DNA of 64,000 nt, taken from assembly GCA_012522855.1 (NCBI GenBank), contig JAAYJQ010000014.1, forward strand, positions 1-64,000, read 5' to 3'. A program made the position numbers and the translations under genes. Shown here piece after piece: positions 23,396 through 42,605 of this stretch. The stretch is from Bacteroidales bacterium (GTDB lineage: Bacteria > Bacteroidota > Bacteroidia > Bacteroidales > UBA932). How positions within the stretch are numbered: position 1 is the first letter of the stretch; each line of letters starts with the position of its first letter. The notes under the pieces were generated by a model, which did no database searches, had not been told where the DNA came from, and worked only from the letters and a program-made list of their open reading frames with translations.

Positions 23396-26233
23396 TTATA
23401 AGGTCTGCTTGACTTCGATGATGGTGAAGGCTTCGATGTTGTCCCCGACTTTGATGTCGTTGAAGTTTTCGATGCCGATGCCGCACTCCATGCCGGAAGC
23501 GACCTCCTTCGCATCTTCCTTGCCCCGCTTCAGTGAGGCCAGATTGCCCGTGTAGATCACGATGCCGTCCCGGATCAACCGGCAATGGGCCCCCCTTGCG
23601 ATTTTCCCGTCCCGGACCAGACAGCCGGCGATCGTGCCGATCCTCGAAATCTTGAAGGTCTGCTTGACCTCTGCGGTTCCTGTAATCTCTTCCTTCTTGA
23701 TGGGTTCGAGCATGCCTTCGATACCGTCTTTTACATCATTGATGGCATCGTAGATGACCGAGTAGAGCCGGATTTCGATGCCCTGCTCGTCCGCGATCTT
23801 CCGCGCGTCGATGGACGGTCTCACCTGGAAACCGATGATGACGGCATCCGAAGCGTCCGCCAGGATCACGTCGGATTCGGATATGGCTCCGACCGCCTTG
23901 TGGATCACGTTGACCCGCACTTGTTCGGTTGAAAGCTTGATGAGCGAATCGGAAAGCGCTTCCACTGATCCGTCCACATCCGCCTTCACGATCACGTTCA
24001 GTTCTTTGAAATTGCCGATCGCGATCCGGCGTCCGATTTCCTCGAGTGTCATGTGCTTCTGGGTCTTGATACCCTGTATTCGGATCAATTGCTCCCGCTT
24101 GTTTGCGATGGTCTTGGCTTCCTTCTCGTCGGACATGACATTGAATTTGTCACCGGCGCTGGGGGCGCCGTTCAGGCCGAGGATCGAAACCGGCGTGGAA
24201 GGGCCCGCCTCCTTTACCTTCTGCCCGCGCTCGTTGAACATCGCCTTGATGCGGCCGTAGTAGCTGCCGCTCAGCACCATGTCCCCGGTTTTCAAGGTTC
24301 CTTCCTGTACGAGAACCGTCGCAAGATAGCCCCGTCCTTTGTCCAGGGAGGATTCGATCACCACCCCGACTCCGTTCTTGTTCGGATTGGCCTTCAGATC
24401 CCGCAGATCGGTTTCCAGCAGGACTTTTTCGAGAAGTTTGTCCACGTTGAGTCCTTTCTTCGCCGAGATCTCCTGGCTTTGGTATTTTCCGCCCCAAGCC
24501 TCGGTGAGAATGTTCATTTGGGAAAGCTGCTGGTAGATCTTTTCCGGCTGCGCTCCCGCCTTGTCGATCTTGTTGATGGCGAAAACCATGGGGACGCCTG
24601 CCGCCTGAGCGTGGTTGATCGCCTCGACGGTTTGCGGCATGACCGCATCGTCCGCGGCGATGATGATGATGGCAAGGTCGGTCAACTGGGCGCCGCGGGC
24701 ACGCATGGCCGTGAAAGCCTCGTGGCCCGGTGTATCCAGGAAGGTGATCCGACGTCCGTCGGGAAGCTTCACGTTGTAGGCACCGATGTGCTGGGTGATC
24801 CCGCCGGCTTCACCGGCAATGACATTCGCTTTCCGGATGTAGTCGAGCAGGGAGGTTTTACCGTGATCGACATGACCCATGACCGTGATGACCGGAGGTC
24901 TCGGGAGGAGATCTTCTTCCCGGTCGGCGGCTTCGGACTCACTCTCGATTTCCTGGGTCAGATCAGCGGTTACGAATTCGACTTTGAAGCCGAATTGTTC
25001 CGCTACCAGCACCAGGGCTTCGGCGTCCAGCCGCTGGTTGATGGAAACCATCAGTCCCAGATCCATGCACGCCTTGATCACTTCGTTGACCGGTGTGTTG
25101 TTCATAAGGGTGGCAAGGTCGTTGACCGTGACGAATTCGGTGACTTTCAGCACCTTTTTCTCGGCGGCCTCTTGCGCGATCTCCTCCTGCGTCTTCGCGG
25201 CGGCCTGCTCGCGCTTCTCCTTTCGGTATTTCGCTCCGAAATTGCTCCTCTTGTTTTCGTTCATCCGGGCGTAGGTCTCTTTGACCTGCTTCTGGATTTC
25301 CTTCTGCATCGCCTCCTGTTCCTCCTCGGACAGTATCGGTTTGAAGCGGTCTGCGCCGCGGCGTCTTTTAGCGCCCTTGCCTTGCTCCGAGGTCTGGCGC
25401 GAATCCCGCCTGTCCCGCCTGTCCTTCCGATCTTTGCGGCCGTTGTTGTCAGCCTGCTTGCCCTCCTTGTCCACATCTACTTTCTGGCTTCCCTTGGCGA
25501 TTCTTTCGCGCTTCTTTCCGCTCTTTTTCTCGAACTGGGAAAGATCGATCTTGCCCAGCACTTTGAGGCCGGGCGCATCGTTCTTCTTTTCCGTTTTGGT
25601 CTTTTCTTTGGGGCTGGCGGCTTGTTCAGTCTTCTGTTTTTGCGCGGCAGCTATTTTATGCTTGTGCTTGCTCGGGGACTTTTCCTTTGCAGGCTCGGAG
25701 GGAGCAGTTTCCGCAGGGGTTGTTGCGGAAATCTCCTCTTCGGGCTTTTCGGGTTCGGTCTCGCCGGCGGTCTCAGGCAGGCTGGAAGGCACGGTTTCCG
25801 GGACAGGTTCCTCGCGCGGCTCCACTTCAGGTTCCGGTTCAGGCACGGGTTCAGGCACGGGTTCAGGCACGGGTTCAGGCTCCGGTTCAGGCACGGGTTT
25901 CGGCTCCGGCTTCAGTTGGGCGGGGGTGAAGATGGTACTCTTGATGACGGTCTCCTGGACCAACTCCTCGTATTCCTCTTCTTGCTGTTCCTCCTGCTGT
26001 TTCCGGGAAGTCTTCTCCAGAATCTCGGTGAGCTTGATGTCCACCTTCTCGGAAGCTTCTTTCAGTTCAAGGTCCTTTCCGAACTGCTTCTCGATTTCCG
26101 GGAGCAAATTGTCCGAGACCTTTGCATTCGGGTTCGCTTCCACGTCGGCCCCCTTGCTGCGCAAGAAGTCAACGAGATTCTGTAGTCCGATGTTGTACTT
26201 TCTGATGATTTTGTTTAGTCTGATATCTGCCAT
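23396..26233 (-). CDS. infB: Translation initiation factor IF-2
   Basis: GTPase that places fMet-tRNA on the small ribosomal subunit; 945 residues. It has the small N-terminal helical IF2N-type module ([16 protein letters not shown]), a long low-complexity charged region (about 90-330) with Pro-Glu-Pro repeats, a second IF2N module, then the G domain starting with GHVDHGKTS near residue 450, domain II/III and a C-terminal domain. A TTG two codons upstream is possible, but the ATG after AAGGGG is preferred. It is the last gene of rimP-nusA-infB, a conserved order. Confidence 0.97.
25824..25912. repeat. Short tandem repeat inside infB (12-bp unit)
   Basis: Several near-perfect copies of GGTTCAGGCACG (plus-strand reading) with GGTTCCGGTTCAGG variants. 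On the coding strand they encode alternating Pro-Glu-Pro/Val dipeptide repeats in the flexible N-terminal part of IF-2. Unit length is a multiple of 3, so copy changes keep the frame. Confidence 0.8.
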
Positions 26234-26275
26234 ATTCAACCCCTTGTTAATCTGTGATTCAGTCCGCTGAGTGGA

Positions 26276-27541
26276 CTAGTCTTCAAATTCGGCGCTGAGG
26301 ATCTTGAACACCTCGGCAACCGTTTCGTCTTCAAGGTCCGCGCGCTTGGCCACATCTTCGGGCGTGTAAGCGAGGACACTCTTCGCGGTGTCGCATCCGA
26401 TGGCCTTCAACCGATCGATGACCCACTGGTCAATTTCGTTGTTGAATTCATCCAGCAACACATCTTCTTCCTCCTCCACTTCCTCTTTCGGAAGTTCCCT
26501 CCATACTTCGATTTCGCGGCCTGCAAGCATACCTGCGAGCTTGATGTTGCATCCGCCCCGGCCGATTCCTTTCTTGACCTCATCCGGTTGCATGTAGACC
26601 TTGATCTTATCGTTCTCGGATTCTCCGAGGTCGATCGAGCTCACCTTGGCCGGATTGAGCGCCCGCTGGATGAGCAGCTGGGTGTTGGACGTCCACTGCA
26701 GGACATCGATGTTCTCGTTGCGGAGTTCGCGGACGATGCCGATGATGCGGGAGCCCTTTACACCGATGCAGGCGCCGATCGGGTCAATCCGTTCGTCGTA
26801 AGATTCCACGGCCACTTTCGCGCGTTCGCCTGGAATGCGGACCACCTTTTTGACCGTAATCAAGCCGTCGAAGATCTCCGGCACCTCCTGCTCGAAGAGT
26901 TTTTCCAGGAACTCGTTGGATGTCCGCGAGAGGGTGATGTAAGGCGTGGTGTTGTTTTTCATCTCCACGCTTTTGATGATGGCGCGGATGGCATCTCCTT
27001 TCTTGAACCTTTCCCCGGGGATCTGCTCGGCCTTGGGGAGGTGGAGTTCATTGCTTTCCTCATCCAGCACGATGACTTCCTTGGACCAGGTCTGGTAGAT
27101 CTCGCCCGTGAAAAGTTCTCCGACTTTGTCGGAATATTCCTTGAAAACGTTCGCCTTGTCGATGTCCATGATCCGTCCCTGCAGATTCTGACGGATGTTC
27201 AGGATTCCCCTGCGCCCGAAGGACTCGAGTGACAGTTTCTTGGTGAAGACGTCCCCGATTTCGTAGTCGTCGTCTCCCGTCTCACGCTTGATCTGCTCGA
27301 GCGTGATCTGTGTATTCGGATTTTCTACTTCTTCCACAATGTCGAAGTTCTGGTAGATTTCGCAGTCTCCCTTGTCGACATTGATAATCACGTCGAAATT
27401 GTCAGCTGAGCCGTAGGTCTTTGCGATCTGGGTCAGGAACACGTCCTTGAGCACCCCCATCATGACGGGACGGTCGATGTTCTTCTCTTCTTTGAAGTCC
27501 TTGAACGCATCAATGAGCGTAGCTTCGTCTTTCTTTTTCAT
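26276..27541 (-). CDS. nusA: Transcription termination/antitermination protein NusA
   Basis: RNA polymerase elongation factor, 421 residues. The N-terminal polymerase-binding domain is followed by an S1 domain (about 130-200), two KH domains with GACIGVKGSRI and GRGGCNIKLA, and a C-terminal helix-hairpin-helix tail (IDRLKAIGCDTAKSVLAYTP). It lies between rimP (13 bases) and infB (42 bases). Possible autoregulation is suggested by the leader hairpin upstream of rimP. Confidence 0.96.
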   Translation of the reverse strand: MKKKDEATLIDAFKDFKEEKNIDRPVMMGVLKDVFLTQIAKTYGSADNFDVIINVDKGDCEIYQNFDIVEEVENPNTQITLEQIKRETGDDDYEIGDVFTKKLSLESFGRRGILNIRQNLQGRIMDIDKANVFKEYSDKVGELFTGEIYQTWSKEVIVLDEESNELHLPKAEQIPGERFKKGDAIRAIIKSVEMKNNTTPYITLSRTSNEFLEKLFEQEVPEIFDGLITVKKVVRIPGERAKVAVESYDERIDPIGACIGVKGSRIIGIVRELRNENIDVLQWTSNTQLLIQRALNPAKVSSIDLGESENDKIKVYMQPDEVKKGIGRGGCNIKLAGMLAGREIEVWRELPKEEVEEEEDVLLDEFNNEIDQWVIDRLKAIGCDTAKSVLAYTPEDVAKRADLEDETVAEVFKILSAEFED

Positions 27542-27554
27542 TGTATTATGAACT

Positions 27555-28028
27555 TTATTTATGATTCGACACGATGTGCGGAACCACGGAATTGACCGCT
27601 TCCCGCGAAAAAGCCTCCTCCCGCTCCACGGAAACCTTCTTCTTGGAGCCTTCCAACGTCTCTTTCCGGAAATATTTCAAAACGATTCCTTCTTCATCCG
27701 CGCGGATCAGCGCGCCGATGAGTCTCTGCCCTCCCTTGAGGCGTACTTCCACCTGGGTGCCGAGGGCTTTCCGGTACTGCCGCAGCACCTTGAACGGTTG
27801 GTCCAGTCCCGCGGAAGTAACGGTCAGCGCATAGTCCTCGACATCCTTGTCGAAAGCTGCCAGGAAGGCATCGTTCACTGCCGCGCAGTCACTCAGATCG
27901 ACTGAGCCGGAATCCTTCTCGATTGTAAGCACGATTTCGTTTCCCTTGCTGACGGTGACATCCACAAGAAAACAGCCGCGTCGCGCGACCGCTTCCTCGA
28001 TTTTCCCGGTAATTGCTTTCTTGTCCAT
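27555..28028 (-). CDS. rimP: Ribosome maturation factor RimP
   Basis: A 157-residue protein needed for 30S subunit maturation, with the N-terminal alpha/beta domain and a C-terminal SH3-like barrel ([20 protein letters not shown]). The frame is open upstream to a GTG at 28070, but that codon lies within a stable hairpin a few bases after the predicted transcription start. The ATG at 28028 ([14 protein letters not shown]) fits the family. First gene of rimP-nusA-infB. Confidence 0.92.
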
Positions 28029-28040
28029 AGCGGCTTTCTT

Positions 28041-28075
28041 AAAAACAAAAGATAGGAGACGCTGCGTCACCTATC
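28041..28075 (-). terminator. Terminator-like hairpin in the rimP-nusA-infB leader (putative attenuator)
   Basis: On the minus strand GATAGG-T-GACG, a three-base CAG loop and CGTC-T-CCTATC form a 10-bp stem with one T-T mismatch, followed by TTTTGTTTTT. It lies between the predicted promoter (28089-28096) and the rimP ATG (28028), so it is in the 5' leader of the operon and does not follow any gene. A leader attenuator is the most likely reading; a 5'-end stabilising hairpin is the alternative. Confidence 0.7.
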
Positions 28076-28088
28076 CTTCTCACGGATG

Positions 28089-28096
28089 CAAATATA
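28089..28096 (-). promoter_or_regulatory. Probable rimP operon promoter -7 box
   Basis: TATATTTG on the minus strand, a full TAnnTTTG match. With start of transcription about 6 bases on, the leader hairpin would begin within roughly the first 10 nucleotides of the transcript. A TTTTC at the -33 position is a partial match. Confidence 0.6.
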
Positions 28097-28164: not shown

Positions 28165-29154
28165 ATGGAGTTCACGGCAAAGCAACTGGCACAAGCACTG
28201 AAAGGAACTGTCGAAGGGGACCCTCAGGCGAAAATCACCTCATTTGCGAAAATTGAACACGGAAAGCCCGGACAACTTTGCTTCTATGCGAATCCGAAAT
28301 ATGAGAAGTACGTGTACACCTGCAAGGCCAGCATTCTGCTGGTAAACAAGGATTTCGTACCCAAGCAAAATGTAACCCCTACCCTGATCCGGGTGGAGGA
28401 TGCCTACAAGTCGCTCGCCGATCTGCTGAAATATGCCGCGACGCAGAAACGTACGGACCGCCGCCACCGGGGATTCCGTTCATCTTGGTTCCTCACCACC
28501 AAATTCGGCAAGAAAGTCTATTTGGGCAGCCATTCTTATGTCGGCCACCATGCCGAGGTGGGCGACTACACCAAGATCTATGAAAATGTTTACGTCGGGG
28601 ACAACACCAAGATCGGTTCCCATTGCATTATCTATCCCGGGGTGGTGATTTATCCCGGCATGATCATCGGCAACAACGTTATCATCCATTCCAATGCCGT
28701 GATCGGCTCGGACGGGTTCGGCAATGCCCCGCTTCCGGACGGGACCTGGGAGAAGATTGAGCATCTCGGCAATGTCATCATCGGCGACAATGTGGAAATC
28801 GGTGCCTGCACCACTATCGACAGGTCGGAAATGGAATCTACGATCATCGGCAACGGAGTCAAGATCGACAATCTCTGCCAGATCGCCCATAACGTGCAGA
28901 TCGGGGAAAATACAGCGATCGCCGCGCAATGCGGCATCGCAGGTTCCACCAAGATCGGGAAGAACTGCATTCTCGCCGGGCAGGTCGGGATCGTCGGGCA
29001 CCTCGAGATTGCTGACAACACGACCTTGGGCGCGCAGTGCGGGGTGATCGGCAACATCAAGAAGCCGGGTCAGGTGTTCCTCGGTTCTCCTTCGCTGCCC
29101 ATCAAATCCTATCTCCGCAGTTACGCCATCTTCAAGCGCCAAGGAGAAGAATAG
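28165..29154 (+). CDS. lpxD: UDP-3-O-(3-hydroxyacyl)glucosamine N-acyltransferase
   Basis: Third enzyme of lipid A synthesis, adding the second acyl chain; 330 residues. An N-terminal uridine-binding domain (to about residue 95) is followed by a left-handed beta-helix of hexapeptide repeats. The catalytic histidine lies in [10 protein letters not shown] and the helix contains [14 protein letters not shown]. The frame is open 106 codons upstream but crosses the divergent promoters; [12 protein letters not shown] is the family-like start. First of a lipid A cluster with lpxC, lpxA and wbqC. Confidence 0.95.

Positions 29155-42532: not shown

Positions 42533-42601
<69 letters not shown>

Positions 42602-42605
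<4 letters not shown>

Follow-up and report, generated by a model that had tools for sequence, protein, structure and literature searches.

Leader attenuators of the rimP-nusA-infB operon have already been described in other bacteria. Under the name rimP-leader, a hairpin followed by a U-stretch was reported ahead of rimP-nusA-infB, with NusA proposed as the factor that acts on it (Naville and Gautheret 2010, PMC2965389). For E. coli, the same report speaks of repression of the operon by NusA. The NusA of B. subtilis is described as autoregulated via NusA-stimulated termination in its own leader (PMC12288461). Interrupted distal U-runs have been described for NusA-dependent terminators (PMC8060035), and in Flavobacterium psychrophilum a structured 5' element was reported upstream of rimP (PMC9723704).

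The locus characterized here lies in a stretch of 64,000 nucleotides from a Bacteroidales bacterium (GCA_012522855.1, contig JAAYJQ010000014.1), referred to as a whole as the window. Its features are as follows.

28089..28096, minus strand: -7 promoter box TATATTTG (TAnnTTTG), from reading the sequence
28051..28075, minus strand: putative terminator stem-loop GATAGG-U-GACG-CAG-CGUC-U-CCUAUC, from sequence, folding and covariation
28041..28050, minus strand: U-run TTTTGTTTTT, from the sequence and the U profile over 171 Bacteroidia leaders
28041..28083, minus strand: leader RNA expected if transcription ended at the hairpin, with the start assumed about 5 nt past the -7 box
27555..28028, minus strand: rimP (30S maturation factor, 157 aa), from Pfam RimP_N and DUF150_C
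26276..27541, minus strand: nusA, probable target and feedback factor, from Pfam NusA_N and KH_5 and from hairpin tracking
23396..26239, minus strand: infB (IF2), from Pfam IF-2 and GTP_EFTU
28165..29154, plus strand: divergent neighbour, putative lpxD, from hexapeptide-repeat content read by eye

A sequence-only reading had placed a -7 box, a 10-bp stem with a three-base loop and a T-run before the rimP ATG, and direct reading of the sequence confirms each of them. The box follows TAnnTTTG, which we take to be the Bacteroidota-type -7 promoter motif. The 10 bp of the stem are 6+4 bp around one U.U mismatch, closed by a CAG loop on the minus strand, and on folding the stem pairs further into the U-run. 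Box, stem and TTTTGTTTTT are followed by the rimP ATG at 28028-28026 on the minus strand, about 55 nt from the assumed start and, according to the terminator finder, 18 nt from the terminator. The distal U-run is interrupted, as has been described for NusA-dependent terminators (PMC8060035). On the plus strand the hairpin is followed by CTTCTCACGG, without a T-run, and the element is thus directional. The same reading had described a terminator without a preceding gene. This is borne out by the upstream neighbour, which is divergent with its ATG at 28165, and by the absence of any co-directional gene ending ahead of the hairpin.

The window hairpin exceeds chance. The bare stem folds with -11.9 kcal/mol (z -4.1; equalled by 0 of 200 shuffles), the 43-nt leader with -16.8 kcal/mol (z -3.5; 2 of 200) and the 55-nt leader with -17.1 kcal/mol (z -2.3; 5 of 200). 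As an own-genome control, 425,755 bases comprising the window and 20 regions, with 300 predicted genes, were searched for genes with a TAnnTTTG box in an upstream intergenic stretch of at most 200 nt. The terminator score of the window leader is 47.2, compared with a best score of 25.4 among the 44 control genes found. The rimP leader itself is outside these 44; it is presumably masked by an over-long ORF of the divergent gene. The hairpin is also absent from the output of a stock terminator and promoter scan, presumably because of the U.U mismatch. At the Rfam gathering score, the sole match in the window is a tRNA at 42533-42605, with no match in the leader.

To assess recurrence, rimP leaders were sampled from genus to phylum, taking the best-scoring first or picking by hand from listings, which makes the set a sample and not a census. 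Loci from repeat genomes (L092, L095, L101, L107 and L118) were dropped ahead of all counts. A leader was counted if it carried a terminator-like hairpin within 250 nt upstream that scored above the 95% point of 4,480 shuffled leaders. Hairpin and U-run exceed this point in 214 of 224 rimP leaders (genus 29/29, family 16/19, order 72/76, class 47/47, phylum 50/53). Seven of the ten sub-threshold loci keep the G-run/C-run stem (L040, L043, L051, L120, L130, L145 and L149), and the remaining three are phylum-level loci (L188, L191 and L195). The distance from terminator to gene has medians of 17.5-26 nt by taxonomic group. A TAnnTTTG box within 70 nt upstream of the stem is found in 158 of 171 loci up to the class level (genus 29/29, family 16/19, order 67/76, class 46/47), a proportion that drops to 11 of 53 among phylum loci. 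At phylum loci without the box, other promoters may serve, and some of the hairpins may belong to the upstream gene. Outside the class the stem sequence often differs (AAGUCCCGCC/GCGGGACUU or AGUGAGCG), while position and U-run are kept (L060, L077 and L082).

Among named close relatives (80 fetched, 79 with enough upstream sequence), box and hairpin are present in 74 of 79, as judged by a score threshold and a somewhat relaxed box motif, without shuffles. The closest NusA relatives among the best 80 of 555 listed are mostly ruminant MAGs, including Candidatus Cryptobacteroides onthequi with 82% NusA identity. From these leader comparisons, the predicted element is spread widely in Bacteroidota.

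The alignment of related leaders for a conserved hairpin and T-run, proposed earlier as the check on the attenuator, shows both recurring from genus to phylum, and the stem covaries. In 65 close leaders including the window, changes on both sides occur in 8 of 11 pairs (53 cells), a level reached by 0 of 500 shuffles; 90.1% of cells pair, compared with 38-60% when the partner is slid by 1-3 columns. Among the 103 distant leaders, two-sided changes are found in 9 of 9 pairs (87 cells; equalled by 0 of 500 shuffles), with 85.4% of cells pairing and 43-65% after sliding. The alignments were built independently of the structure, but the structure was taken from them. Of the distinct leaders, 4 of 68 close and 37 of 140 non-genus ones are excluded, with odd stems among the latter. 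At the position of the window's U.U mismatch, the 65 close leaders have G-U in 24, G-C in 19 and A-U in 4 cases, and 18 are unpaired. Three G-run/C-run pairs (columns 16-18 with 34-36) are G-C in 96-100 of the 103 distant leaders, a set from which the 37 of 140 leaders, odd stems included, were left out. The usual Bacteroidia stem is AGGGGAC-GUCCCCU, and the window's sub-clade has one G-C pair fewer: the window stem reads GGUGACG-CGUCUCC with one G-C pair lost, while the sisters L247-L251 retain GGGGACG.

A covariance model (R1) built from an imperfect MAFFT alignment that excluded the window's genus missed the window copy in a default scan. With filters off it scored the copy at 9.9 bits (E 0.29 in 2.2 kb). 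Across 61 genomes, many other sites were among the R1 matches listed, often on both strands, and the stem is therefore not unique to this leader. The matches away from rimP in order-level genomes fall on both strands, as expected of symmetric two-way terminators with a similar stem.

That the hairpin arose by chance, or is simply the terminator of an upstream gene, can practically be dismissed. The divergent neighbour, the shuffles, the own-genome control and the covariation all speak against it; nothing in the window speaks for it, though some of the 42 of 53 phylum loci without TAnnTTTG could be terminators of this kind. For the window itself, an upstream-gene terminator is false, given the divergent neighbour and the conservation of the element.

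In the 171 leaders up to class level, T makes up 57-85% at positions 1-9 past the stem's last C and falls to 18-36% at positions 10-20. The U-run is thus about 9 nt long. The RNA:DNA hybrid is of about the same length. With the start assumed about 5 nt past the -7 box, the stem begins a median of 13 nt from the start and the RNA at the end of the stem has a median length of 40 nt (158 leaders). Stems at the 5' end can protect messages, and with its position at the extreme 5' end the hairpin might act on the finished message, through 5' stability or translation control, without terminating. This reading is highly improbable, since the 9-nt U-run conserved beside the stem is needed for termination and not for stability, and the distance from stem to start codon varies.

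The leaders offer little room for a competing structure. The RNA preceding the 3' arm folds with a median of -0.2 kcal/mol, compared with -16.1 kcal/mol for the hairpin (158 leaders, start assumed). An upstream fold comes within 3 kcal of the hairpin in 2 of 158 leaders, and upstream folds of -5 kcal/mol or lower occur in 7 of 158; that of the window has 0.0. No sensor domain or alternative antiterminator structure of the riboswitch, T-box or ribosomal-protein leader type was seen in the 158 folded leaders or in the Rfam scan of the window. As competing folds are rare, a factor acting on the polymerase would be the simplest regulator. A leader peptide or riboswitch was rejected as there is little room before the stem.

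To determine which gene the leader serves, genomes apparently devoid of rimP were analyzed. Thirty genomes without a RimP match were picked; nusA was found in 26 of them, five of which match a 31-sequence RimP profile. There remain 21 genomes that have nusA but lack a RimP match at E<=1e-3. Of these, ten are also negative with Pfam RimP_N, and eleven, of the window's family, are negative with the window's RimP. Pfam RimP_N is insufficient to establish absence: it misses the window's own rimP in genome searches, and absence was therefore called by the 31-sequence profile. The profile recovered 113 of 113 held-out rimP loci, a flattering recall as those loci came from RimP searches, and found nothing in the 21 nusA loci. 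The one marginal partial RimP match, in G096 (E 0.09), falls within a 544-aa frame located elsewhere. The rimP-less genomes are 74-100% complete, and in single cases rimP could lie in a missing contig, but in none does it adjoin nusA.

The hairpin stands before nusA in 21 of 21 of these genomes, compared with 14 of 218 nusA starts of other loci, a control that holds near-copies and in which the relatives' loci make up 80 of 219 candidates, with rimP known only as a reading frame in 74. The threshold was the shuffle 95% point, 27.9, at which 14 of 218 is near chance level. On the NusA tree (FastTree; 7 of 165 rows thinned), the rimP-less rows require 8 changes, at least 5 of them forced by starred branches. 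The longest frame separating the leader from nusA measures only 89-100 aa in 29 of 74 close relatives, and RimP is, by frame length only, apparently cut to about 90 aa there (L253, L256, L257, L260, L262, L263 and others among L230-L309). RimP also appears cut to this length in genus g43 (L315 and L317). As judged from reading frames and profile searches, several lineages have a shortened RimP or none.

Where sequence beyond nusA is available, infB is linked to it in 155 of 157 loci. The two genes are in separate places (L387 and L388) in G533, an order-level relative (98% complete) and the sole member of its family, in which box and hairpin are located directly upstream of nusA (L323). This hairpin is weaker (1 of 50 shuffles equal; fold -8.5 kcal/mol, 5 of 200 equal). 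The gene after nusA is not infB and was read as a metallo-beta-lactamase-fold protein, and no rimP match was found in the genome with the 31-sequence profile. In G533, infB is encoded on a different contig, where a TATATTTG box of its own lies 51 nt upstream, and no terminator-like hairpin was found upstream of it (best score 17.2). By gene neighbourhood, the hairpin follows nusA and not rimP, and in this one genome not infB.

These observations bear on two further explanations. In the first, attenuation is sensed by a factor other than NusA, such as NusG, IF2, RimP, ppGpp or a ribosomal signal. NusG is an intrinsic termination factor in B. subtilis too (PMC8060035), and infB follows nusA in nearly all loci as counted above. 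RimP, however, was rejected as the sensor, being undetectable in 21 genomes that keep the hairpin; IF2 is disfavoured as a putative sensor by G533 only, where infB is elsewhere and the hairpin stays with nusA; and no ligand-sized structure is present. Altogether, a different sensor appears unlikely. The second explanation is a terminator of fixed efficiency, which would hold the operon at a constant proportion of initiation events, irrespective of NusA or anything else. It would agree with the lack of a visible sensor domain or alternative structure, and many hairpins look strong enough to act unaided (median -16.1 kcal/mol). A weaker promoter could replace such a throttle, yet the hairpin recurs phylum-wide and persists while the state of rimP changes about 8 times, and it tracks nusA in particular, which makes this reading rather improbable.

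The element is most likely a leader attenuator of the nusA operon through which NusA, by analogy with other bacteria, would exert feedback on its own synthesis. This had been the proposal of the sequence-only reading, and it is supported by a hairpin that is conserved and stays before nusA without rimP and, in one genome, without infB; NusA dependence itself is assigned by analogy. Transcription would start just past the -7 box, and within about 40-50 nt the polymerase would have made the hairpin and U-run, a predicted intrinsic terminator. Some polymerases would stop and release a short leader RNA, and others would read through into rimP-nusA-infB. Abundant NusA would raise termination at this site and lower its own synthesis, and scarce NusA would lead to more read-through. 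A hairpin kept before nusA after rimP (and, in one genome, infB) has gone is predicted by feedback on nusA. As the predicted terminator lacks an evident alternative structure and is inherited with nusA, NusA-stimulated termination would be the best explanation. As a counterpoint, the transcript on which NusA would have to act is only about 40 nt long. At this length sigma is possibly still bound and would compete with NusA.

A tRNA-Gln (UUG) gene is found on the same strand just upstream of the attenuator in 6 of the 76 rimP leaders at order level (L106, L111, L127, L145, L146 and L156), and likewise in 2 of 21 rimP-less nusA leaders (L327 and L332). The tRNA-Gln terminator may double as the leader terminator. 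The metY-rimP region of E. coli is a resembling arrangement.

More tentatively, and with doubts that slightly outweigh our confidence, the element could be an ancient minimal feedback device of Bacteroidota. It would consist of a hairpin and a 9-nt U-run within about 45 nt of the start, NusA alone would sense its own level at promoter escape, and the device would be passed on together with nusA rather than with rimP or infB. A tRNA-Gln gene would, in some lineages, lie between promoter and attenuator, and tRNA and NusA would share one terminator.

Compared with the known systems, the leader most closely resembles the rimP-leader, for which a G-rich 5' arm, a C-rich 3' arm, a spacing of 4-130 nt to the gene and no visible antiterminator are described (PMC2965389). 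In the window, a hairpin with a U-stretch is likewise found in the operon's 5' UTR, at a spacing within 4-130 nt and with no competing antiterminator or larger conserved element, and with respect to the motif GGGc(...)gCCC the window copy is one G-C pair short. The main text of PMC2965389 differs in that it does not contain 'Bacteroid', the species lists being in a supplement outside this comparison, and its section 7 does not discuss a hairpin kept before nusA after loss of rimP. Rfam family RF01770 (rimP, 102 positions) represents, by name, the leader of the same operon; it has no match at E<=1 in the window's genome, and nine leader loci compared with all Rfam families gave only tRNA at E<=1.

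The B. subtilis leader shares an intrinsic terminator in the leader of a nusA operon (PMC12288461), and here, by gene order only, the attenuated unit also contains nusA. Stimulation by NusA is reported there, and the B. subtilis leader is about 180 nt long (PMC2965389), compared with about 55 nt to the ATG here; the distance between the two is too great to judge homology. The F. psychrophilum element agrees in its place, phylum and transcribed region, is described in other Flavobacteriaceae genera and has no Rfam hit (PMC9723704). It was set beside the window leader by description and not by sequence; the main text of that paper does not contain 'nusA', and its section 19 reports neither a terminator for rimP nor a spread past the family. 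Two Bacteroides thetaiotaomicron transcriptome papers do not name rimP or nusA in their main text, and no study tying the leader to nusA via rimP loss was found among the titles and the beginnings of abstracts of the top-listed papers, including few subscription papers.

NusA is a general termination and pausing factor, and its feedback has been reported for both B. subtilis and E. coli. The predicted leader terminator remains with nusA while rimP is lost repeatedly, and in one genome apart from infB, which gives a comparative answer to the question of which gene the leader serves. Bacteroidota would gain a simple, testable RNA circuit, which raises the question of whether NusA can act on a transcript of about 40 nt. 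The type of leader attenuator was known already; its wide spread in Bacteroidota and its tracking of nusA are added here.
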